Shown here: positions 178-36,868 of the stretch, in pieces | Position numbering within the stretch: the stretch's first letter is position 1 | Layout of the letters: each line of letters begins with the position of its first letter | DNA from: an uncultured Bacteroidales bacterium | Lineage (GTDB): Bacteria > Bacteroidota > Bacteroidia > Bacteroidales > Bacteroidaceae | Reading direction: 5' to 3' | Assembly (NCBI GenBank): GCA_902772585.1 | Contig: CACYBB010000002.1 | Location: 1 to 64,000, forward strand | DNA: 64,000 nt | The notes under the pieces: model-generated | The model's database searches: none | What the model saw: the letters and a program-made list of their open reading frames with translations, nothing else | What the model was told of the DNA's origin: nothing | Position numbers and translations under genes: made by a program

Positions 178-1560
178 TTATAGGGTATTTGTTATATATT
201 TAAGTTTGAAATAATTGTAAAGCATATTGATGCGGGCATTGACCAAAGCCATATCGGCAGAGAGCTTCATGTTTGAGGCATCAAGCATATCGGTGAGCAG
301 AGCCAGGTCGTTGTCGTAACGGTTCTTCACCACCGCATAGTTCTGGTCAGCAAGTTCTACCTGTTTCTCCTGTGTGCTAACCTCTATCGAACTGGTCAGC
401 AGATTGGTATAGCAGGCTTGTACACCATTCTCTATGCCTTCACGCGCCAGCATCACACTTTCGCGTGCCTGGGTGTTTTCATGCTTCGCCTTACGGATAG
501 CATGCTTGTTCTTCCAGAGACTTGACAGATTGTATTTCACGCCAATGCCTACAAACCACACGTTGACGTTGGCATCTTTTGGAATCAGGTCGGAGGTGTA
601 TGGGCCAAGCAGATTGTTTTCTGCTACTACAGCCACTGATGGCCGCGAGGCTGCACGCGTGTTCTTGACTTTCTGTTCCGATATTTCTGAGGCAAGCGAA
701 GCCTGACGGATATCGATATTGTTTTCTGCTGCAGTCTGTTGCCACAACTCCTCTGAGGTGAGTGTCTTGAGTGCCATTCCCTCTTCTTCAAGCGACTGCG
801 TATCCACCTCAAAATCCTCTCCCTCTGGCAGGTGGATGGCTGTGCTTATCTGATGACGGATAATCTTCTGTGCATCATCAAGCTGTGTCTTTGTAAGCAG
901 AAGACTTTGCAGTTGCAGTTCGTATCGTGTGATGTCGTTCTTCAACACCGTCCCCTGTTCTCTGCGAGCCTTCATCTGTGCGATGATTTTCTTTGTCAGC
1001 TCCATGTTTTTCGCTATCACCTGCAGCTGGTTCTGCAGTTTGCTGAGGTCAAGGTAATAACCGGTAAGCAAGAAACGAATCTCTTGTCGATTCTTCTCTA
1101 CATCAAGCTCTGCCAACCGGCGCCCCAGCTTTGCCATTTCAATGCCTGAACGGATGGCTCCACCTGCATAGATGACCTGACTAGCCTGAGCTGTAAAGCT
1201 GTTGCCCCAATGTGGTGTGGGCTGTTTGCCATTCTGCACCTGTTGAGGTCCCAATCCGGGGACAATATACTCTGTAGTGCCACTGGTAGAAAAGCCTCGC
1301 GACATCAGGAATGCATTGCCCGTATAAGAGCCTTGCAAGCTGAATTCAACACTTGGCAACATGGCAGATTTTGCCGATGCCACCCCTTCGTCTACAGCCT
1401 TCAATGCCACTTCGCTGACCTTGATGCGCTGATTCTGACGGTCAGCCAGGTCAAAAAGCGACTGAAGACTCATCTTGTGCTGTGCATACGAAGGTACACA
1501 GCAACTTGCTCCGACTATCATCGAGACTGTCAGAGCACAAAAATTCTTGTGACTACTCAT
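178..1560 (-). CDS. TolC-family outer membrane efflux protein
   Basis: About 460 aa, the usual size of TolC/OprM-type channels. Residues 1-27 (MSSHKNFCALTV...SYAQ) are a signal peptide; two long helical repeats follow, with the alternating hydrophobic pattern and the repeat endings typical of outer membrane efflux protein domains (for example ...NRYDNDLALLTDMLDASN... near the C-terminus). It would form the trimeric exit duct of a tripartite efflux or secretion system together with the adjacent HlyD-type protein. The start at 1560 was chosen because it begins a clean signal peptide; the frame stays open upstream to 1653 with an alternative ATG at 1590, but the extra residues would spoil the signal sequence. 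No clear -7 box was found directly upstream. Confidence 0.85.
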   Translation of the reverse strand: MSSHKNFCALTVSMIVGASCCVPSYAQHKMSLQSLFDLADRQNQRIKVSEVALKAVDEGVASAKSAMLPSVEFSLQGSYTGNAFLMSRGFSTSGTTEYIVPGLGPQQVQNGKQPTPHWGNSFTAQASQVIYAGGAIRSGIEMAKLGRRLAELDVEKNRQEIRFLLTGYYLDLSKLQNQLQVIAKNMELTKKIIAQMKARREQGTVLKNDITRYELQLQSLLLTKTQLDDAQKIIRHQISTAIHLPEGEDFEVDTQSLEEEGMALKTLTSEELWQQTAAENNIDIRQASLASEISEQKVKNTRAASRPSVAVVAENNLLGPYTSDLIPKDANVNVWFVGIGVKYNLSSLWKNKHAIRKAKHENTQARESVMLAREGIENGVQACYTNLLTSSIEVSTQEKQVELADQNYAVVKNRYDNDLALLTDMLDASNMKLSADMALVNARINMLYNYFKLKYITNTL

Positions 1561-1807
1561 TAAAATGTAATTTTTACTCTTACAATTCATTACTCGTACT
1601 AAAAATATTCCTTCCCTCGGAAATACGAATAATGAACCTTCTGGTTCGGACAAACCTCACGTTTGCCACAATGCGCTACAAACCTCTCTGATTAGGGAAT
1701 AAATCAGAAGATGAATTTCGAGCACTATTAATTGCGAAATCCTCTTTTCATCTTAAAAAATCGAAAAAGTGATGCTCTGTAGCGTTCGCAAAATCAACTT
1801 TTTTTAT

Positions 1808-2238: not shown

Positions 2239-2294
2239 GTTTTTATAATTTACCCTCGCTTAATCACAGCCCGAACCTGTTTCATATTGCTGCA

Positions 2295-2360
2295 ATTCGT
2301 CACAAATCTGTGTTGTTTATCCCAGAAATTTGTGGATGCTGCAACTTCGTCATACCTTTG
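2295..2360 (+). promoter_or_regulatory. LytTR-type operator and promoter A (outer-membrane barrel gene)
   Basis: CGTCACA at 2298 and TATCCCA at 2318 form a direct repeat (xxTCxCA) with a 20-bp period. Four nt downstream lies TTTG (2329-2332, -33 box) and exactly 20 nt later TACCTTTG (2353-2360, -7 box). The same arrangement is seen at three other promoters in the next 7 kb. The spacing of about two helical turns is typical of LytTR-domain binding sites, and a LytTR gene lies 2 kb away. Confidence 0.7.
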
Positions 2361-2421
2361 CAACGTCTAACAAGATGAAAATGCTTAATCGGAAAAACAT
2401 AAACGATAAAATAGTAAGAAT

Positions 2422-4656
2422 ATGAAAAAGATGCTTTTTAGAATGACACTTATGCTGGTTGCAATGATGATGACAATGACGACCTATGCAGCCAGTGGCG
2501 ATGACAACAATGACGTAGAAGAAGACGAAGAGTGGTTGGATGCCGACACCTTGGCAATAGACACCACCCTATGGTATAACCAGACACAACAACTCGGCGG
2601 CATCGTGGTCAAGGGCCGTCTGCCCAAGACACGCGTCAAGGGTGACGCCATGCGCACCACCGTTGCAGGTACCATATTAGAAAAAGCCGGAACTGTGAGC
2701 GACGCACTCTCTAAAATTCCACAGTTGAAGACTGAGCGCGACGGGAGTGTAGAGGTTCTTGGCCGTGGTGCTGCCGAGGTGTATATCAATGGGCGCAAGG
2801 TACAGGACGTCAGTGAACTCTCTCGTCTGCGCTCTGACCAGATTCAGCACGTCGACGTGGTGCAGAACCCTGGTGCGCGCTATGCTGCCTCGACGAAGGC
2901 TGTCGTTCGCATCACGCTGAAGAAGGCGCAGGGCGAAGGTCTGAGTTTTCAGGATAACGCTGGTGGCATCTATAAGTATGGTCACACGCTGACCAACAAC
3001 CTCGACGTAAACTATCGCACGGGTGGTCTCGACATCACCGCCTCGTTCTGGGTAGGCCGTTATGGTCACCACGAAGGCAAGCAGGATAATGACCTGACTT
3101 ACTATGCCGGTCCCGATTATATTCTGGGCAAGACCACCCAGAACACGAAGAATATCTGGAAGGGATGGTCACCCCAACTGCAGGTGAACTATATGGTCAA
3201 CGAGAAACACAGCTTCGGTGCCTATTACAAGTATGACCGTCATCCCAGTGGTGAACTGACCAGCAATTTCTTTACCGACTCCTATGAGAACGGTAAGTTC
3301 AAGGAGCACTCAGAGAGCCATATCTGGCAGGACGACAACTTCCGCAAGCACATTTTCAACGCTTATTACAATGGTAAACTGGGCAAGTTGGGTATCGATC
3401 TGAACATCGACGGGCTCTTCGATAAGACAGAGACACCAGGCAGCACCACAGAGCAGACAACGGCTGCTCCCGTGGCTGGTGGTTCGCCTGCTAGCACAGA
3501 GTCTCGCCTCATCGAGAGCAACACCAACAGCTCGAACAATTTCTGGGCCTCGAAGCTTATCTTCTCCTATCCTATCTGGAAGGGTAACCTCTCCGTTGGT
3601 GGCGAGTATTCCTACAACCATCGCACGGATGCCTACTCGTTTATATCTACAGAAGCCGTTCCCGTGAAGGCTACTGATACAGAGATTAACGAGAAGTCGG
3701 CAGCAGTCTTTGTGGAGTACGGACGCCAGTTTGGTCGTCTCTTTGCCCAGGTGGGTATGCGCTATGAGCACCTGCAGAACGACTACTACAACTTTGGCGT
3801 ACGTGAAGACGATGTGTGTCGCAACTACGGTGACTGGTTCCCCACAGTTGTCCTCTCAGCACCTGTTGGCAAGATGCAACTGTCGCTGTCGTATCGTCGT
3901 GATATCGAGCGCCCCAGCTATTCAAACTTGACCAGTTCGACCATCTATCTGAATCGCTATGCCTACCAGAGTGGCAACCCCTATCTGAAGCCGACCTACA
4001 CGCACAGTCTCGTGCTGAATGCGGCCTACCAGTGGGCCAACCTGACCATCAACTACGGACGCATCAAGGATGTCGTCACCCTGTCCACCGAGCCTTTCCC
4101 CGGCAGCACGGATCCGCTCGTCAGCCTCGTCCGTCCTATCAACAGTACTGAAGACTACGACCAGCTGTCGTTCAGCCTGTCGGCCCGTCCAACTATCGGC
4201 AAGTGGCACCCGACGTGGTATGCTTATTCTATCTTCCAGAACTATAAGACACCGACTATAGATGGTACGTTGAAGACACTCAACCACCCCTATCTGACCC
4301 TTGCATGGAATAACGACATCGAACTGCCGTATGCCTTCCGTCTGATGGCCAACATGCAGTGGTCTTCGAAGGGCGACTATAACAACAACCGCATCACCTG
4401 CCAGCGTTTTAATACTACGCTGGGTGTGCAGCGCGACTTCCGTCTGGGACGTATGGGCTCATTGACAGCCGACCTGCGTTGCTACGATGTCTTCAATACC
4501 GACAAAACCGATGCCATCATTTACGGTATCCGCGAGTTGACAACCAGTAATCCCGCTCGTCGCACCTTCATGCTCGACCTCACCTGGAAGTTCAACGAGG
4601 CCCGTTCAAAGTATCGTGGAAGTGGCGCTGGAGAGAAACAAAAGGCACGAATGTAG
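2422..4656 (+). CDS. Outer membrane beta-barrel family protein (TonB-receptor-like, no N-terminal regulatory domain)
   Basis: 744 aa. Residues 1-24 are a methionine-rich signal peptide, followed by an unusually acidic linker (about residues 25-43). A plug-like domain follows (about 55-165; ...TVSDALSKIPQLKTERDGSV..., VYINGRKV, IQHVDVVQNPGARY), then a long aromatic-rich barrel ending in FMLDLTWKFN and a short basic tail. This is the architecture of the 'outer membrane protein beta-barrel family' (PF14905) of Bacteroidetes, which lacks the carboxypeptidase-like domain of SusC proteins; ligands are generally unknown. It is transcribed alone from operator/promoter A and ends in a terminator shared with the convergent LytTR gene, which together with the shared operator suggests it is a target of that regulator. 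Confidence 0.85.
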   Translation: MKKMLFRMTLMLVAMMMTMTTYAASGDDNNDVEEDEEWLDADTLAIDTTLWYNQTQQLGGIVVKGRLPKTRVKGDAMRTTVAGTILEKAGTVSDALSKIPQLKTERDGSVEVLGRGAAEVYINGRKVQDVSELSRLRSDQIQHVDVVQNPGARYAASTKAVVRITLKKAQGEGLSFQDNAGGIYKYGHTLTNNLDVNYRTGGLDITASFWVGRYGHHEGKQDNDLTYYAGPDYILGKTTQNTKNIWKGWSPQLQVNYMVNEKHSFGAYYKYDRHPSGELTSNFFTDSYENGKFKEHSESHIWQDDNFRKHIFNAYYNGKLGKLGIDLNIDGLFDKTETPGSTTEQTTAAPVAGGSPASTESRLIESNTNSSNNFWASKLIFSYPIWKGNLSVGGEYSYNHRTDAYSFISTEAVPVKATDTEINEKSAAVFVEYGRQFGRLFAQVGMRYEHLQNDYYNFGVREDDVCRNYGDWFPTVVLSAPVGKMQLSLSYRRDIERPSYSNLTSSTIYLNRYAYQSGNPYLKPTYTHSLVLNAAYQWANLTINYGRIKDVVTLSTEPFPGSTDPLVSLVRPINSTEDYDQLSFSLSARPTIGKWHPTWYAYSIFQNYKTPTIDGTLKTLNHPYLTLAWNNDIELPYAFRLMANMQWSSKGDYNNNRITCQRFNTTLGVQRDFRLGRMGSLTADLRCYDVFNTDKTDAIIYGIRELTTSNPARRTFMLDLTWKFNEARSKYRGSGAGEKQKARM

Positions 4657-4677
4657 TTCGTATTTGCTTCATACGAA

Positions 4678-4710
4678 GAAGCCCTCAATTCAATTTGAGG
4701 GCTTCTTTTA
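4678..4710. terminator. Bidirectional terminator overlapping the LytTR stop codon
   Basis: Perfect 11-bp stem GAAGCCCTCAA (4678-4688) / TTGAGGGCTTC (4695-4705) with T-rich flanks on both sides. It serves the barrel gene on the plus strand and the LytTR gene on the minus strand; the last LytTR codons (KEALKLN) and its stop at 4685-4687 lie within the hairpin. Confidence 0.85.
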
Positions 4711-5539
4711 TTGTGGACATGTTGCTGCGCGAGACGGGGAGTGACTCGTGGCAGTGCTTAACGATGAGTTGAGTGGAGCCGGAATGTGAGACAATCTGCT
4801 CTACCTGACCAAGGTTGACCAAGAAGGCACGATGGCAACGGACAATCATCGGATAGCCCTGCAACGTTTCCTCCATCTGTTTCATGGTGGCGCGAAGCAT
4901 GTCGGCATGCACCTGATTGTCGCGCAGATATCTCACCTTGACGTAGTTGCCCACAGCCTCAATATATAATAGGTGGGAAATCTGGAGCGTCACAGATTCG
5001 TTAGTGGTGCCACGAAGGAGAAGACTCTCCCCCGCCCCCTCCCTCTGATGGAGGGGTGTAGATAGTTTTTCATTCAATTCACGTATCTCTTCCAATTCCA
5101 TCGCCAGATATTTGCTGCGGTACTTGAAGCGCCAATAGAGTCCGATGGCGAAGGAGAGGAATGCGATAATCACAAGCGTTTCCAGATAGTTGCCGAGCGA
5201 CAGTCTGTTGCCTTCTACCAGCTCGCTCATCGCAAAGTGGCGATAGAAACAGATGAGTAGCGACACCAAAGGTGTGTTGATGCATTGGAAACGGAGATTT
5301 CGGTTAATGATATAGCTGACACCACGGTCGTAGGAGCGGGGCATGCGGATTATGTATCGCAGAATGATTTCCGTCAGGAAACAACTAAACATGCCCAATG
5401 CAAATAGTGCCAGCAGATGAACAGAAGCCTGCCATTGCCACATTTCGAGCCCGAAGGGCTTGAAGATGGCGATTGCCAGCACCATGAAGGCGGTGCTGAT
5501 GAAACGTGTGCTGATGGTTGCTTTGTGACCTTTGTCCAT
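4685..5539 (-). CDS. Membrane-anchored LytTR-domain transcriptional regulator
   Basis: 284 aa. Four hydrophobic segments (about residues 12-32, 37-60, 90-110 and 125-147) are followed by a linker and a C-terminal LytTR DNA-binding domain (about 180-284; HLLYIEAVGNYVKVRY, MIVRCHRAFLVNLGQVEQI, LPVSRSNMSTIKEAL). There is no receiver domain, so it is not a classical response regulator; such membrane LytTR proteins are thought to act as one-component switches or with an inhibitor. It is divergent from the LiaF-like gene, with a triplicated operator between them, and the same operator lies before three other nearby genes, so it is the obvious candidate regulator. The linker (about residues 160-172) is encoded by a G/C-rich palindromic repeat. 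Its own promoter has a perfect -33/-7 pair and an almost leaderless start. Confidence 0.88.
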   Translation of the reverse strand: MDKGHKATISTRFISTAFMVLAIAIFKPFGLEMWQWQASVHLLALFALGMFSCFLTEIILRYIIRMPRSYDRGVSYIINRNLRFQCINTPLVSLLICFYRHFAMSELVEGNRLSLGNYLETLVIIAFLSFAIGLYWRFKYRSKYLAMELEEIRELNEKLSTPLHQREGAGESLLLRGTTNESVTLQISHLLYIEAVGNYVKVRYLRDNQVHADMLRATMKQMEETLQGYPMIVRCHRAFLVNLGQVEQIVSHSGSTQLIVKHCHESLPVSRSNMSTIKEALKLN

Positions 5540-5547
5540 ACGGTCAG

Positions 5548-5579
5548 CAAAAGTAATACAATTCTGTTAAATCACCAAA
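5548..5579 (-). promoter_or_regulatory. Promoter of the LytTR gene
   Basis: Minus strand: TTTG (5576-5579), 20 nt, TACTTTTG (5548-5555). The ATG at 5539 lies only 8 nt after the -7 box, so the message is leaderless or nearly so. The operator half-site CGTCAC at 5585-5590 is immediately upstream of the -33 box, allowing autoregulation. Confidence 0.7.
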
Positions 5580-5580
5580 A

Positions 5581-5665
5581 CATTCGTCACATTTCTGCCA
5601 TTTATCACATTTCCATGCTGTTTATCCCAGAAATTTGGAGTGATTAACATTACACTGTAATTTTG
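5581..5665 (+). promoter_or_regulatory. LytTR-type operator and promoter B (LiaF-like gene)
   Basis: Three half-sites: CGTCACA (5585), TATCACA (5603) and TATCCCA (5623). The last two have the 20-bp period of the other operators. TATCCCA is followed after 4 nt by TTTG (5634-5637), then 20 nt and TAATTTTG (5658-5665). It lies between the LytTR gene and the LiaF-like gene. Confidence 0.72.
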
Positions 5666-5700
5666 CACCCAGAAATGTTTAATCATAAAAAGTAAAGGTT

Positions 5701-6252
5701 ATGAAAACAAGAACGATTTTTGGAATCCTGTTGATTGTGGCTGGTGCATGGAAACTGGCCAACATGTGGGGAATCATTGAGAACGACTGGCTGTGGTGCC
5801 AGCCTTGGACAGCATACGTTGCACCAGCGCTATTGTTGTACGTGGGCGCAGGAATTATTGTCGACAGTTATCGTCGTGACCCCGACCAGTGGTTGCAGCG
5901 TCCGCTGCCCATTGGTGAGGACGGCAAGCGCATCTGCTGCTCTGTAAACTATGGTGGCGACGAGTACATCTATCGTGGTGAGGCGTTCCATGGTGCCCGT
6001 CTCGATGCCTTCTGCGGTGGCATCCGCATGGACCTGCGCGAGGCTGTGATTACTGAGGATGAGGAGATAGATATCCACACCTTCTGTGGTGGCATCGAAC
6101 TCTACGTACCCACCCACGTCAACGTTGAAGTGAAGAGCCGCAGCTTCATTGGCGGTGTCGGCAATCATGCCACACGCAATGCCGATCCGAAAGCCCCCAC
6201 CATCCATATTGTCGCCAGCAATTTCTTTGGTGGCGTGGATATCAAGAATTAA
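5701..6252 (+). CDS. LiaF-like membrane protein (two TM segments plus LiaF C-terminal-like beta domain)
   Basis: 183 aa. Two membrane segments (about residues 4-24 and 36-54) are followed by a soluble beta-rich domain built of repeated strands with an F-x-GG signature: DAFCGGIRMDLREA, HTFCGGIELYVP, RSFIGGVGN, NFFGGVDIKN. This matches the C-terminal domain of LiaF/YvqF proteins ('cell wall-active antibiotics response'), which in Firmicutes inhibit an envelope-stress sensor. The gene is divergent from a membrane LytTR regulator and carries that regulator's putative operator. A LiaF-like membrane partner next to a LytTR protein is a frequent pairing in Bacteroidetes; that it restrains or responds to this regulator is inference. 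Confidence 0.8.
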   Translation: MKTRTIFGILLIVAGAWKLANMWGIIENDWLWCQPWTAYVAPALLLYVGAGIIVDSYRRDPDQWLQRPLPIGEDGKRICCSVNYGGDEYIYRGEAFHGARLDAFCGGIRMDLREAVITEDEEIDIHTFCGGIELYVPTHVNVEVKSRSFIGGVGNHATRNADPKAPTIHIVASNFFGGVDIKN

Positions 6253-6263
6253 AAAACTTTTTG

Positions 6264-6271
6264 TATCTTTG
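6264..6271 (+). promoter_or_regulatory. -7 box before the GNAT/CDP-alcohol transferase pair
   Basis: TATCTTTG, 45 nt before the ATG at 6317, in the short gap after the LiaF-like gene. No TTTG at the expected -33 distance and none of the LytTR half-sites found nearby. Confidence 0.5.
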
Positions 6272-6316
6272 CAGTCGAAAACCATCTAACTAACAAAGAA
6301 ATATTGAAATTTAACC

Positions 6317-6967
6317 ATGAATATCAGATTAGAAACCCCTAAAGATTATCGCGAGGTAGAGAACCTTACGCGTGAAGCATTCTGGAACGTTTATCGTCCT
6401 GGATGCACAGAGCATTATGTGCTCAATCAGTATAGAACAAATCCCGATTTTATCCCAGAGTTGGACTTTGTGATGGAGGAAGGCGATGGTGAGCACCAAT
6501 CGCCTGAAAAGATTATCGGCCATGTGATGTTTTCGAAAGCAGAGATTACGCTTGACGACGGAAAGGTTTTCCCTTCATGGACCTTCGGCCCCATCAGCAT
6601 TCATCCTGACTACAAGCGTAAGGGCTACGGGCTGAAACTGTTGCAATATGCGATAGAGAAAGCCAAAGAAATGGGAATCGGTCTTCTGCAGATGGAGGGC
6701 AATATCGAGTTTTACAAGCACGCAGGCTTCTACCTCGCCAGCAAAATGAACATTCACTATCATGCAGAGCCGCGAGAGTCAGAGGTTCCATATTTCCTCG
6801 CTCAAGAACTGATACCAGGCTATTGGGGCAATCGTGAGGGAACCTATTGTCCGCCCAAGGGCTATTTTGTGGCTGACGAGAATCCCGAGGCTTTTGAGGC
6901 TTACGAGGCCACCTTCCCCCAGAAAGAGAAACTCCGCCTGCCAGGACAATTAGGATACGAAGAATGA
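6317..6967 (+). CDS. GNAT-family N-acetyltransferase
   Basis: 216 aa. The acetyl-CoA-binding motif A is clear (FGPISIHPDYKRKGYGLKLL, about residues 92-111: Q/RxxGxG/A type loop KRKGYG), with motif B further on (GNIEFYKHAGF). Proteins of this type acetylate small amines; the substrate cannot be read from the sequence. The N-terminal segment (MNIRLETPKDYREVENLTREAF) is typical of YhbS-like members. Its stop overlaps the start of the next gene by ATGA, so the two are translationally coupled. It has its own -7 box and lies outside the LytTR operator set. Confidence 0.85.
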   Translation: MNIRLETPKDYREVENLTREAFWNVYRPGCTEHYVLNQYRTNPDFIPELDFVMEEGDGEHQSPEKIIGHVMFSKAEITLDDGKVFPSWTFGPISIHPDYKRKGYGLKLLQYAIEKAKEMGIGLLQMEGNIEFYKHAGFYLASKMNIHYHAEPRESEVPYFLAQELIPGYWGNREGTYCPPKGYFVADENPEAFEAYEATFPQKEKLRLPGQLGYEE

Positions 6968-7449
6968 CTCAGCTGCCGAACATCATAACGCTGCTTAGGA
7001 TTGCAGGCTCTTTAGGTCTGCTCCTTTGTGATGTGACGGGTGCGGCATATTGGATAATCTATGCTCTCTGCGGCATCAGCGACATAGCCGACGGATGGTT
7101 GGCAAGAAGGCTAAAATGTGTTACCAAGAAGGGAGCATTGCTGGATAGCGTGGCAGACATTTGCTTCGTAGTGTGTTGTGTTTGGAAACTCTTGCCTATA
7201 CTCGAACTGCCGCAATGGCTGTGGCTGTGGGCAGGAGTAATCGTCGTAATTAAAGTTGTGAATCAGCTTTCAGCCCTTGTGATGTACGGGCATTGCTGCT
7301 TCCCTCACACATTTGCGAACAAAATAACAGGCTTTCTGCTCTTCATCACAGTCCCCATGACATTTTGGTCAATTATCCCCATCGCCATTGTGGCCGCTAT
7401 CGCCACGTTTGCTGCCATGCAAGAGGGTCATTTAATTCGTAGGAAATAG
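6964..7449 (+). CDS. CDP-alcohol phosphatidyltransferase family protein
   Basis: 161 aa integral membrane protein. It contains the complete family motif D-x2-D-G-x2-A-R-x8-G-x3-D-x3-D as DIADGWLAR...GALLDSVAD (about residues 38-66), which binds the CDP-alcohol and metal ions. Members make phosphatidylglycerophosphate, phosphatidylserine or related lipids; the protein is shorter than typical PgsA (about 180-200 aa) and the lipid made cannot be decided. Five or so hydrophobic segments are visible. It overlaps the upstream GNAT gene by 4 nt. Confidence 0.82.
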   Translation: MTQLPNIITLLRIAGSLGLLLCDVTGAAYWIIYALCGISDIADGWLARRLKCVTKKGALLDSVADICFVVCCVWKLLPILELPQWLWLWAGVIVVIKVVNQLSALVMYGHCCFPHTFANKITGFLLFITVPMTFWSIIPIAIVAAIATFAAMQEGHLIRRK

Positions 7450-7452
7450 ACC

Positions 7453-7518
7453 ATTCGTCACATTTCTGTACCATTTATCCCAAATGTTTGGTAGTCTAGG
7501 CTGTTATGCGTAATTTTG
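7453..7518 (+). promoter_or_regulatory. LytTR-type operator and promoter C (Zn-ribbon/PPOX gene)
   Basis: CGTCACA (7456) and TATCCCA (7476), 20-bp period; 4 nt later TTTG (7487-7490), 20 nt, then TAATTTTG (7511-7518). It begins 3 nt after the stop of the CDP-alcohol transferase gene. Confidence 0.72.
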
Positions 7519-7548
7519 CGGTGTCGAAACGTAAAAAATAATAATAGT

Positions 7549-8277
7549 ATGGAACAGAGATTTTGCCAGAGCTGCGGTATGCCGCTCACAGATGATGTGC
7601 TAGGTACGAATGCCGATGGCACGAAGAACGAAGATTATTGCATGTACTGCTACAAGGGTGGCCAGTTCCTGCAGGATTGTACGATGGAAGAGATGATTGA
7701 GCATTGCGCTCAGTTTGTGAATGCTGTTAATGAAGGGTTGCCACAGCCCATCACGAAGGAAGAATACATCGGACAGATGAAGATGTACTTCCCTCATCTG
7801 AAGCGTTGGCGCAAGGAACTAACGATTACAGATTCAGCTCCAGTGGAGAGCCCAGCGCTTACTGGTGTAAAGGAATTGATAGCCACGATGGCCGACACGC
7901 TGCCTGTCACTTATATCTCGTCTGTTGACGAAGAGGGTTTCCCATGTACTAAGACGATGCTGTCGCCACGAGTCCGCGAGGGCATCAAGACGTTCTATTT
8001 CACCACCAACACATTCTCAATACGTGTGGCTCAATACAAGGCTAACCCCAAGGCCTCAATCTATTTCTGTGATGCCAAGGGTTTCAAAAGCATGATGCTG
8101 CGTGGTACGATGGAAGTGCTGACAGATGCCGCCTCGAAGGAGATGATTTGGCGTGATGGCGACGAGCAGTATTACCCCGGAGGTGTCACCGACCCGAACT
8201 ACTGCGTTCTGAAGTTTACCGCCTCCGATGGCCGTTTCTATAGCGATTTTTATCCACGTAGTTTTGTGATTGAGTAA
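7549..8277 (+). CDS. Zinc-ribbon plus pyridoxamine 5'-phosphate oxidase-like (PPOX) protein
   Basis: 242 aa. Residues 1-40 hold a zinc ribbon with Cys6, Cys9, Cys31 and Cys34 (CQSCGMP...CMYC). A linker of the 'putative zinc ribbon' family follows (about 45-90), then a split-barrel FMN-binding PPOX-like domain (about 105-242; VTYISSVDEEGFPCTKTMLSP, FYFTTNTFSIRVAQYKANPKASIYF). Such proteins bind flavin or related cofactors, and some are general-stress or redox proteins; the reaction is unknown. Start chosen at 7549 because it follows promoter C by about 30 nt and begins the zinc ribbon exactly. The next gene starts directly at the stop codon, so the two share one message. Confidence 0.85.
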   Translation: MEQRFCQSCGMPLTDDVLGTNADGTKNEDYCMYCYKGGQFLQDCTMEEMIEHCAQFVNAVNEGLPQPITKEEYIGQMKMYFPHLKRWRKELTITDSAPVESPALTGVKELIATMADTLPVTYISSVDEEGFPCTKTMLSPRVREGIKTFYFTTNTFSIRVAQYKANPKASIYFCDAKGFKSMMLRGTMEVLTDAASKEMIWRDGDEQYYPGGVTDPNYCVLKFTASDGRFYSDFYPRSFVIE

Positions 8278-8772
8278 ATGATGAACAATAAAGCACTTGT
8301 CGTTATCGACATACAGAACGACATCACTAAACACTACCGCGATATCATTGACAATATCAATGCCGCCATCGAATGGGCCACAGCCGAGGGGATGCATGTG
8401 GTCTATATCAAGCATAATAACATCACAGCAGGCACGCGGACATTCAAGCCTGGCAGTAAGGGCGAAGAACTGGTACCTGAGATGAAGGTTGTGTCAGACA
8501 ACATCTTCGTGAAGACGAAGAGTAATGCCCTTACAAGCGAGGCGTTTTATACTTTCATTGCAGCGAATGGCATTAATGAGTTCTACGTGGCTGGCGCTGA
8601 TGCTACGGCCTGCGTGAAATCAACGTGCTTCAACATGGCCAAGGCGGGTTTCACGGTGCATGTCCTCTCCGATTGCGTCACCAGTTACGACCTGAAGAAA
8701 CTCCCAGAGATGTTCGCTTATTACGAAAGTAAAGGCTGTGTTTTAGCGAGAGTAGAGCGATGCTTGCATTAG
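8278..8772 (+). CDS. Isochorismatase-like cysteine hydrolase
   Basis: 164 aa. The catalytic triad of the family is visible: Asp11 (ALVVIDIQND), a lysine at 79 or 81 (FVKTKSNA) and Cys112 (GADATACVKST), with the usual cis-peptide region before the cysteine. Members hydrolyse amides or imides such as nicotinamide, or isochorismate; the specificity is not evident. The ATG follows the stop of the PPOX gene without a gap, so both belong to the unit driven by promoter C. Its last codons run into a short palindromic repeat (from about 8745). Confidence 0.85.
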   Translation: MMNNKALVVIDIQNDITKHYRDIIDNINAAIEWATAEGMHVVYIKHNNITAGTRTFKPGSKGEELVPEMKVVSDNIFVKTKSNALTSEAFYTFIAANGINEFYVAGADATACVKSTCFNMAKAGFTVHVLSDCVTSYDLKKLPEMFAYYESKGCVLARVERCLH

Positions 8773-8830
8773 CTCTGCCGAGCGTGAGCAGGCTCGAACG
8801 GAGTTCAAGGCTCTATAGCCTTCGTGCGAT
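8745..8830. repeat. Short palindrome cluster at the 3' end of the hydrolase gene
   Basis: The stretch contains several overlapping GAGC/GCTC inverted repeats (for example GAGCGTGAGCAGGCTC) and resembles the palindromic leader at 9628-9712 (shared GCGAGA, AGAGC and CTCGGC-type words). Between 8773 and 8998 no convincing gene is seen; a 63-codon frame crosses it but its first half is made of the repeat. Confidence 0.4.
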
Positions 8831-8998
8831 GGCTGGAGGCATTAGCTGCATCTTCGACTTCACTTGGCTGAAATACTTTTCTTCCCTCATTCCCGCCATT
8901 ATCGTATGGTGCTACTGGCCAGGAATCAAGAAAACTTTTAAACAGATATGATAATGAATTATTTTTTTGAGTACAAGAGATAACAAATAACAAGAAAT

Positions 8999-9523
8999 AT
9001 GAGTGATTTCATGATACTACGTCCATTCAACATCAATGATGCAAAGGCCATTCTGAGCTGGTGCAAGGACAAACATACTTTCCGGCTTTGGAGTGCAGAC
9101 AGGTACAAGGAATACCCTGCTAAGCCTGAGGAGATGATGGAGCAGTACGAGGGTGATAATATGTATCCGTTCACAGCTGTCGTGGGAGATGAAATCGTCG
9201 GGCATATCCTATTAAGATTCCCCTTAGAGGATAAAAGTGTCATTCGTTTTGGCTTTGTTATCGTGGACGATTCGAAGCGAGGCATGGGATATGGCAGGCG
9301 ACTTCTCCAACTTGCTATCGATCATGCATGTAATCAGATGGGTGTAAAGACCATTACACTGGGAGTTTTTGCGAATAATCCTTCTGCCCTTAAATGCTAT
9401 CAGTCAGTAGGTTTCAAGATAACAGGTGAAGATTCCTACATGATTGATGGCGAGAAATGGAAAGGATATGAGATGAAGTATGTCAACTATATACAAAAAG
9501 CTTTGAACGAGGCGTTCGAGTAA
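8999..9523 (+). CDS. GNAT-family N-acetyltransferase
   Basis: 174 aa. Motif A is clear (FGFVIVDDSKRGMGYGRRLL, about residues 83-102, with the RGMGYG loop), followed by motif B (NNPSALKCYQSVGFKITGE). The N-terminus (MILRPFNINDAKAILSWC) is typical of RimJ/RimL-like or YjbC-like members that act on proteins or small molecules. It stands alone, about 230 bp after the hydrolase and 200 bp before the CatA-like gene. No operator of the LytTR type precedes it. Confidence 0.84.
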   Translation: MSDFMILRPFNINDAKAILSWCKDKHTFRLWSADRYKEYPAKPEEMMEQYEGDNMYPFTAVVGDEIVGHILLRFPLEDKSVIRFGFVIVDDSKRGMGYGRRLLQLAIDHACNQMGVKTITLGVFANNPSALKCYQSVGFKITGEDSYMIDGEKWKGYEMKYVNYIQKALNEAFE

Positions 9524-9561
9524 GGACAAAGACAACTATTAGAACCATAATTTTCTTTATC

Positions 9562-9627
9562 ATTCGTCACTAATCGACGCAGAATATCCCAAATGTTTGG
9601 CTGTCTCGACAAATATGCGTAACTTTG
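9562..9627 (+). promoter_or_regulatory. LytTR-type operator and promoter D (CatA-like gene)
   Basis: CGTCACT (9565) and TATCCCA (9585), 20-bp period; 4 nt, TTTG (9596-9599), 20 nt, TAACTTTG (9620-9627). Same geometry as A, B and C. Confidence 0.7.
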
Positions 9628-9722: not shown

Positions 9723-10340
9723 ATGAAACAGGAAATCAATCCAAAAGATACCAGTAGAGCTATTGCCTTTGAGTTGTGGACGAAGTCGCCCATGCCGATG
9801 GTAACACTCACGAAGACGTTTGACGTGACGCGACTGCGGAAAGTGAGCAGGAAGCGGGGCTTGAAGTTCAACATGCTGCTGTGCTGGTGTATCGGCAAGG
9901 CTGCATCAGGGATAGAGGAGTTTTACATGTTGCCCAAAGACGGGAAGCTGTACAAATATGACCGCATGGCCATCAACGTGATAGCGGAAAACGCAAAAGG
10001 AGGACTGAGCTTCTGCGACGTGGCCGTCACTGACGACCTGGAGGCGTTTAACGCCAACTACACGCAGCTGACGGAGACCATCAGCCAGACCTGCCAGGAT
10101 ATCCTCGACGATGAAGCCATCATCGTCGGCACGTCGGCAGTGACAGGCACGGAACTTGACTGCATCACTAACCAGTATAACGGCATCTTCAACAATCCCT
10201 TTTTGGCCTGGGGCCGCTACCGTAAGGGTTGGCTGAGGACTACCCTACCCATCTCCCTCCAGTTCCATCACGCCCAGATGGACGGCAAGCACGCCGCCCG
10301 ATTCCTAGAAGAACTGCAAAGAATCATGAATACGATTTGA
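9723..10340 (+). CDS. CatA-like O-acetyltransferase (chloramphenicol acetyltransferase fold)
   Basis: 205 aa, close to the ~215 aa of type A chloramphenicol acetyltransferases. The catalytic histidine motif is present near the C-terminus (SLQFHHAQMDGKHAARFLEE; HHxxxDG at about residue 182). The N-terminal part (FELWTKSPMPMVTLTKTFDVT) and the central strand (MAINVIAENAKGGLSFCDV) fit the CAT fold. Many such proteins in Bacteroidetes are not resistance enzymes, so the acceptor is open. Start chosen at 9723, after the palindromic leader; the frame extends upstream through the leader but that part is repeat sequence. It carries operator D, linking it to the LytTR set. Confidence 0.82.
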   Translation: MKQEINPKDTSRAIAFELWTKSPMPMVTLTKTFDVTRLRKVSRKRGLKFNMLLCWCIGKAASGIEEFYMLPKDGKLYKYDRMAINVIAENAKGGLSFCDVAVTDDLEAFNANYTQLTETISQTCQDILDDEAIIVGTSAVTGTELDCITNQYNGIFNNPFLAWGRYRKGWLRTTLPISLQFHHAQMDGKHAARFLEELQRIMNTI

Positions 10341-36789: not shown

Positions 36790-36868
36790 CAAAGTTACGA
36801 AAAAGATTCAGAAAACCAAAGAAAAATCCAAATTTCTTTGGTTTTTTGCTCTGTTTACACTACCTTTG
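36790..36868. promoter_or_regulatory. Divergent promoters for the histidine kinase and the RNA methyltransferase
   Basis: Minus strand: TTTG (36817-36820), 19 nt, TAACTTTG (36790-36797). Plus strand: TTTG (36837-36840), 20 nt, TACCTTTG (36861-36868). The two -33 boxes are 16 bp apart, back to back, so the two transcripts may compete for polymerase. Confidence 0.7.

Follow-up and report, generated by a model that had tools for sequence, protein, structure and literature searches.

Do four closely spaced promoters that carry the same repeated element answer to a single regulator, and is that regulator the membrane LytTR protein encoded among them? The DNA in question, hereafter the window, is a stretch of 64,000 nucleotides from an uncultured, Prevotella-like Bacteroidales bacterium (GCA_902772585.1, contig CACYBB010000002.1, positions 1 to 64,000), in which a first-pass annotation, made from the letters alone, had described a local LytTR regulon of four promoters sharing one operator in strictly conserved geometry. 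Comparison of the operator and of the LytTR gene across related genomes suggests that the two very probably form one gene-control system.

A common operator at four promoters

All four of the proposed promoters, here designated A to D, carry the operator in fixed geometry (Table 1), with two half-sites in direct repeat at a 20-bp period and the proximal half-site 4 nt from the TTTG of the -33 box. The half-sites read CCRTTYRTCACA (distal) and near GAATATCCCA (proximal), and are thus longer than the core TCxCA initially assigned to them. Likewise, the initial pattern TCxCA-N15-TCxCA-N4-TTTG-N20-TAnnTTTG fits A, B, and C exactly but D with one mismatch (distal TCACT), averaged 0.10 matches in shuffled sequences, and has a fifth place at 36808 with three mismatches. 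Rewritten as RTCMC-N14-TRTCCC-N5-TTTG-N20-TAnnTTTG, the grammar gave four matches in the window, namely A to D, and a mean of 0.00 matches in 100 shuffles. A profile model (R1) was trained on 19 operator sequences, including the four of the window. The promoter boxes alone (TTTG-N20-TAnnTTTG) occur at nine places in the window, four of which hold the operator (46-59 bits) while the other five score negative, in agreement with the earlier remark that further promoters with good boxes lack the repeat.

The motif is also rare in the genome of the window (2.86 Mb, 88% complete), where the first-pass annotation had called for a search for unrelated promoters carrying it. The exact operator part matched A, B, and C only, D being missed because of its TCACT, and R1 recovered A to D and no other site at E <= 0.01, in a search whose filters can drop weak matches. 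In addition, the reversed pattern had no match among the genomes listed in the family and order searches, and chance similarity was ruled out by the shuffles, these reversed-pattern controls, and the conservation described below.

All four sites fall on the same strand inside a span of 7.3 kb, and 42-50 letters are alike in pairwise comparison over 80 nt, with C/D (50) and A/B (48) alike beyond the motif letters, as would be expected if the sites were recent copies of one promoter segment without common regulation. The target families, however, are unrelated, relatives have the motif before the same and other families and also on other contigs, and conservation across genera contradicts copying as a full explanation, which is extremely improbable. 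Duplication of promoters may nonetheless have contributed to the operator's spread.

The membrane LytTR regulator and its probable promoter

A membrane LytTR regulator divergent from site B had been proposed, and the Pfam domain and the hydrophobic stretches of the encoded protein agree with this. The LytTR domain scores 58.7 bits against a Pfam cut-off of 22.6, placing the protein in the LytTR family, and simple hydropathy marks hydrophobic stretches ahead of this domain at residues 7-34, 36-64, and 113-140, with 3-5 hydrophobic windows in each of 16 aligned LytTR proteins. On the basis of simple hydropathy, transmembrane segments and a DNA-binding domain are thus combined in one protein, as in the class of transmembrane transcription regulators (TTRs). 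A sequence search against solved structures returned two matches (3d6w and 4cbv), both within the LytTR-domain part, and a Pfam scan at E <= 0.001 gave no match to an MHYT domain in the window regulator.

The form of the half-sites also resembles that read by LytTR proteins. As described in the available excerpts of the articles cited here and below, LytTR sites comprise two 9-11-nt repeats 11-13 nt apart (PMC4847170; similarly PMC11347149), and AlgR reads CCGTTCGTC, and CCGTTCATC at rhlI (PMC4064291). The distal half-site, CCRTTYRTC, covers both AlgR boxes and is identical to CCGTTCGTC in some relatives (e.g., L035). Moreover, the third half-site reported beside the regulator's own promoter at site B is present, with a spacing of 18 bp and not 20. 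This outermost half-site, next to the LytTR -33 box, is inverted relative to the LytTR gene, and the repeats lie within the shared divergent region.

Conservation and co-occurrence in relatives

Matches to the LytTR protein at >=50% identity were detected in 20 of the 60 genus genomes, the window's own included and some being fragments, and 15 other orthologues that were aligned share 51-83% identity with the window protein. Among named public genomes, 482 relatives of the LytTR protein were found, of which the best 80 loci were kept. Their titles name Prevotella, Prevotellaceae, Bacteroidaceae, or Bacteroidales, and nearly all are metagenome assemblies, many from ruminants to judge by title; Prevotella sp. 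tc2-28 (L109), which is not labelled as such an assembly, has both the regulator and the divergent site. These 80 loci (1.16 Mb) contain 125 operators above 24 bits, with the two overlapping registers of an array in L059 counted separately, and one block-shuffled copy of the loci contained none above 16 bits. Among the 110 unique operator sites, 102 were outside the training set. The site was present in 77 of the 80 loci and lay in the LytTR-divergent promoter in 68; four loci (L059, L064, L071, and L093), in which it lies upstream of the aligned start but inside the 5' extension of the longest frame, were set aside and counted neither with these 68 nor with those lacking a divergent site. The motif is hence conserved alongside the LytTR gene, a point on which the first-pass annotation had let its proposal depend.

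Co-occurrence was evaluated in 121 family genomes, with a strong orthologue defined by E < 1e-100 and an operator called at E <= 0.001. The operator was found in all 13 genomes with a strong LytTR orthologue and in 5 of the 108 others. No family genome except the window's own had supplied training sites, and without it the contrast was 12/12 vs 5/108 (Fisher p 5.9e-13, a value that, like all co-occurrence p values given here, is too small because the genomes are related). With the exact grammar instead of the model, matches were found in 15 of the 121 genomes (10/13 vs 5/108, p 6.0e-9); among these, the matches in G090 (on C2) and G165 begin with ATCCC or GTCCC, have no R1 support there, and may be chance or divergent. 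At the level of the order, the exact grammar occurred in 3 of 198 genomes, one being the window's own. Outside the family, the match in G205 (L281) adjoins a LytTR homologue (53 bits), and the 3 kb fetched around that in G289 (L282) contained no LytTR. Generic LytTR proteins were also considered as readers and rejected, as the operator was absent at E <= 1e-6 from 25 of 28 further genus genomes whose LytTR matches are all generic or diverged.

Related arrangements were found at distant membrane LytTR genes of other genera. In L206 and L208-L211, the LytTR gene is followed by a same-strand operator-like repeat and a gene whose product is secreted or in the outer membrane. The exact grammar stands directly after the LytTR gene in L208 and L209, ahead of an outer-membrane gene; in L210 and L211 the repeat keeps its 20-bp period and the -33 box is altered, and L206 has a 21-bp period. 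The LytTR/operator pairing may consequently be older than the family sample shows. A different architecture was noted in L216 (1498-3147, G108) and L217 (G082), which encode 550-aa proteins ending in a LytTR domain and have the same operator type in the divergent promoter; the L216 protein, the one scanned, has TPR repeats and a DUF6377-like stretch ahead of LytTR.

Rarity, co-occurrence in the family, the 68 divergent sites, and the AlgR-like half-site thus support the link between the operator and the membrane LytTR gene, and several observations weigh against it. Three of the 80 loci have no site in the fetched DNA, and eight in all have none in the divergent promoter; TAnnTTTG is missing from the expected stretch at 19 of the 125 sites; and two (L214 and L222) of the seven distant membrane LytTR loci examined have no clear operator. 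The five family genomes with an operator and no close orthologue also count here, although in two of them (G114 and G149) the contig with the operator encodes a diverged LytTR homologue as well. Within the genus, the operator was called in 18 of 20 genomes with an orthologue and 3 of 40 without at E <= 1e-6 (18/20 and 7/40 at E <= 0.01), a table that is partly circular because 15 of the 18 positives supplied training sites beside LytTR genes; three of the five LytTR-bearing genus genomes that gave no training sites have the operator (p 0.013). The two LytTR-bearing genomes without it (G040 and G056) are 80% and 62% complete and contain the gene only as fragments, with open frames of 152 and 82 aa, respectively, and the three genomes with it but without a close orthologue are G025, G049, and G059. 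Furthermore, the thresholds were chosen after the tables had been seen, and related genomes are non-independent trials.

These exceptions bear on the alternative that some other regulator, either an unrelated one-component factor or a nearby extracytoplasmic function (ECF) sigma factor, reads the motif and controls the LytTR gene simply as one target among others. Operators near ECF sigma genes, in G025 (L258, Pfam Sigma70_r2) and G060 (L294, by eye), would fit it, as would the few genomes that have operators without a close LytTR orthologue. The promoters nevertheless keep ordinary TTTG/TAnnTTTG boxes, direct repeats two turns apart and a half-site like that of AlgR are characteristic of LytTR sites, and the motif tracks the LytTR gene in the family sample and recurs beside distant membrane LytTR genes, all of which makes a foreign reader quite improbable. 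In G060 (L294), the operator is followed by a LiaF-like and outer-membrane-barrel gene pair, and no LytTR match was obtained in this genome at E <= 1e-25.

Geometry, polarity, and half-site arrays

The 20-bp period also holds among the relatives. When promoters in the 80 loci were chosen by ATCC[CA]A-N4-T[TA]TG-N20-TAnnTTTG alone, 80 of 84 had RTCMC exactly 20 bp upstream, and the remaining four had none within 45 bp; the next commonest distances, 41 bp (25) and 32 bp (9), represent extra half-sites. The spacing from TTTG to TAnnTTTG was 20 nt in 104 of the 125 sites and 21 nt in two. Several of the 19 sites lacking the -7 box in the expected stretch are outer-membrane-barrel promoters with ATGGGG for TTTG, and others, with ATGCAG, keep the -7 box distance; these promoters may form a separate class within the regulon. 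Half-sites are intact in both sets, which consist mostly of outer-membrane-barrel promoters: no -7 box was found in the ATGGGG set (L069, L078, L080, L156, L257, L261, and L262), and a -7 box stands at the right distance in the ATGCAG set (L073, L086, L114, L259, and L260).

The operator is polar, with distal TCAC in 103 and proximal TCCC in 105 of the 110 unique sites, a tendency that the model used to collect the sites could favour, although the four window sites were already polar. A wholly symmetric operator was not seen; distal TCCC occurred in two of these unique sites and proximal TCAC in none.

Extra half-sites (at least one) were detected in 46 of the 68 divergent promoters of relatives, and in 13 of 57 non-divergent sites with enough upstream DNA. 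In 29 divergent promoters, an extra half-site lies exactly 40 bp (two periods) upstream, where about 0.04 would be expected at 0.00057 per base; the other distances were 12 bp (8), 30 bp (7), and 21 bp (7), and L042 has four half-sites, the first three within identical 20-mers. On the LytTR strand, 15 of the 44 unique promoters with extra half-sites (window B included) have TAnnTTTG 24 nt past the outermost half-site, and in 12 TTTG directly abuts this half-site, window B having both features; no such LytTR promoter was recognised in most of the other loci. Four half-sites phased at 20 bp were also observed in L240 (57-137), in the promoter of an outer-membrane-barrel gene some 4 kb away from LytTR.

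Target genes and linkage

The targets named by the first-pass annotation (an outer-membrane barrel, a LiaF-like protein, a Zn-ribbon/PPOX protein with an isochorismatase-like hydrolase, and a CatA-like acyltransferase) were borne out by Pfam and NCBIfam (Table 1). In the LiaF-like protein, a LiaI-LiaF-like TM match was below its cut-off; PF09922 is the former DUF2154. The isochorismatase-like gene is probably co-transcribed with target C, and in relatives this family has the operator directly in front at three sites. By contrast with the targets, no operator immediately precedes either GNAT gene (6317 and 8999) or the gene for a CDP-alcohol phosphatidyltransferase (6964). A TolC-family outer-membrane efflux protein gene (178-1653, minus strand) lies near the regulon without an operator.

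Table 1. Operators, promoter elements, and genes of the LytTR locus (positions in the window)
Feature	Position	Strand	Details
Operator A	2293..2333	+	-33 TTTG 2329-2332; R1 E 5.4e-10; training site
-7 box of promoter A	2353..2360	+	TACCTTTG
OMP_b-brl_3 outer-membrane beta-barrel protein, target A	2422..4656	+	Pfam 212.7 bits
Membrane-anchored LytTR regulator, 284 aa	4685..5539	-	Pfam LytTR PF04397, residues 182-281
Probable LytTR-gene promoter	5548..5579	-	TTTG 5576-5579, N20, TACTTTTG 5548-5555; geometry recurs in some relatives
Extra third half-site	5580..5591	+	ACATTCGTCACA; upstream of the distal half-site of operator B; abuts LytTR -33 box
Operator B	5598..5638	+	Distal half-site and proximal TATCCCA; -33 TTTG 5634-5637; R1 E 5.7e-12; training site
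-7 box of promoter B	5658..5665	+	TAATTTTG
LiaF-like membrane protein, target B	5701..6252	+	Pfam LiaF-like_C 39.4 bits, cut-off 29
Operator C	7451..7491	+	-33 TTTG 7487-7490; R1 E 1.2e-8; training site
-7 box of promoter C	7511..7518	+	TAATTTTG
Zn-ribbon and pyridoxamine-phosphate-oxidase-like protein, target C	7549..8277	+	Pfam Zn_ribbon_2, PNPOx_N
Isochorismatase-like hydrolase	8278..8772	+	Pfam; start right after the stop codon of the preceding gene
Operator D	9560..9600	+	Distal half-site TCATTCGTCACT; -33 TTTG 9596-9599; R1 E 6.3e-10; training site
-7 box of promoter D	9620..9627	+	TAACTTTG
CatA-like O-acetyltransferase family 2, target D	9723..10340	+	NCBIfam CatA_like_2 318.7 bits, cut-off 250

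Across relatives, the LiaF-like family is the commonest target in the LytTR-divergent position, following 33 of the 68 divergent sites, with the outer-membrane barrel at 13, other clusters at 14, and none recognised or the contig end at 8. A second count, over 122 sites of the genome loci (with some repeated in overlapping loci, and two window sites included), gave the outer-membrane barrel at 27, LiaF-like at 16, GNAT or Zn-ribbon/PNPOx at 12, a TonB-type receptor cluster at 6, an ABC ATPase at 5, CatA-like and flavodoxin/FMN reductase at 4 each, a membrane acyltransferase at 3, and PhzF at 2, together with two families without a Pfam match (4 and 3) and the rarer DJ-1/PfpI, GyrI-like, S41 peptidase, and choloylglycine-hydrolase-like targets; families were named by the Pfam match of one example each. 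Such families suggest envelope and small-molecule defence, from which we infer a possible role in envelope or xenobiotic stress.

The designation of the regulon as local is correct for the window genome, in which all four operators are local, but does not extend to the genus. In its LytTR-bearing genomes, 62 operators (E <= 1e-5) were distributed as 20 within 1.2 kb of the LytTR gene, 16 at 1.2-25 kb on the same contig, and 26 on other contigs, which in draft assemblies are not always distant; confinement of the motif to the LytTR locus was accordingly ruled out. In G055, for instance, several operators are on a 118-kb contig, and the LytTR gene lies inside a 333-kb contig.

Proposed mechanism

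The probable explanation, judged from sequence comparison, is that a one-component, membrane-tethered LytTR activator would bind the operator, regulate its own gene, and control envelope and detoxification targets. The anatomy of the sites, their rarity, spacing, and conservation, and their co-occurrence with the LytTR gene are observed; binding, activation over repression, the signal, and the LiaF feedback are the parts that we infer. Two LytTR subunits would bind the tandem half-sites on the same face of the DNA, 20 bp (about two turns) apart, with the proximal half-site, 4 nt upstream of the Bacteroidota -33 TTTG, in the position expected of an activator that touches RNA polymerase. The regulator would activate its own locus together with a few genes for envelope and detoxification functions, in the window those for the outer-membrane barrel, the LiaF-like protein, the Zn-ribbon/PNPOx and isochorismatase operon, and the CatA-like acetyltransferase. 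Additional subunits may be recruited by the extra half-sites of the divergent LytTR/LiaF promoter, which would link the LytTR promoter with that of the target and provide autoregulation. On the model of the LytTR Regulatory Systems (LRS), the LiaF-like protein may in turn exert feedback on its regulator.

The operator could also belong to the membrane LytTR protein with the latter acting as a repressor that releases its targets on a signal. This would resemble CoxC, a membrane LytTR protein that represses via three direct repeats overlapping the -35 box (PMC11347149), and the proximal half-site is indeed only 4 nt from the -33 box, with half-sites filling the gap between two -33 boxes in some divergent promoters. 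Nevertheless, the repeats lie upstream of the -33 box and not over it, like those of the activating Streptococcus mutans LRS (PMC6193735), and their constant spacing from the promoter fits an interaction with RNA polymerase, so that repression appears unlikely.

A broader proposal can be made tentatively, at somewhat less than even confidence: in Prevotella and relatives, a tethered LytTR protein may run a dispersed multi-gene regulon via a polar operator in fixed register to both promoter boxes, plus an expandable phased array of up to four half-sites in its own divergent promoter that would lock two face-to-face promoters. If true, the two halves would be filled in an order set by the polarity, and the tether would force unlinked targets to come to the membrane. 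How membrane-bound transcription factors reach unlinked promoters is poorly understood (PMC10269533), and a sharply defined operator with a likely regulator and countable targets makes this question testable. In addition, the genome-wide operator model is ready for gut Prevotella relatives, and the polar half-sites and arrays provide a natural series for studying LytTR cooperativity.

Comparison with known systems

A description of this operator or regulon was not found in the open-licence literature searched. In the available excerpts, the nearest published relatives are the LRS-like operons of Bacteroides (B. thetaiotaomicron Btheta7330_RS19920/19915, and B. ovatus), which likewise have a multi-transmembrane LytTR regulator with a DUF2154/LiaF-type partner, a pair of proteins also encoded in the window, and repeats upstream of a Bacteroidota promoter with presumed autoregulation (PMC6193735). 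Those operons consist of two genes, the membrane protein first, with 11-bp repeats separated by 11 bp (22-bp period), the distance to the promoter being likewise 11 bp (PMC6193735), whereas the window has divergent genes, a 20-bp period, a 4-nt gap, asymmetric half-sites, and several targets, and does not form such an operon. Similarly, HdrRM and BrsRM of S. mutans have a LytTR regulator, a DUF2154 protein (HdrM), positive autoregulation, which is predicted for the window as well, and direct repeats close to their promoter (in the S. mutans LRS, 4-11 bp ahead of -35), but pair a soluble regulator with a separate membrane inhibitor in the same operon (PMC6193735); in the window, the regulator itself appears membrane-anchored and the LiaF-like gene is divergent, outside any common operon.

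CoxC of Afipia carboxidovorans is also a one-component membrane LytTR regulator with tandem direct repeats, and differs in its MHYT sensor, for which the window protein has no match, and as a repressor with three repeats over the -35 box (PMC11347149). AlgR of Pseudomonas aeruginosa shares the LytTR domain and the box CCGTTCGTC, but belongs to the AlgZR two-component system, and its boxes are, in the excerpted account, not necessarily 12-bp-spaced direct repeats (PMC4064291). TTRs, common in Bacteroidota, similarly unite DNA-binding and transmembrane parts in one protein, but are a broad architectural class for which the excerpts define no such operator (PMC10269533). The conjunction of LytTR with LiaF-type (Toastrack) proteins has been noted for Firmicutes (PMC11237479), and the polarity described here might be modelled on YpdB, whose two unequal sites are filled in order (PMC4847170). 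The system is a variant of the published LytTR/LRS-like systems, well-defined and new.

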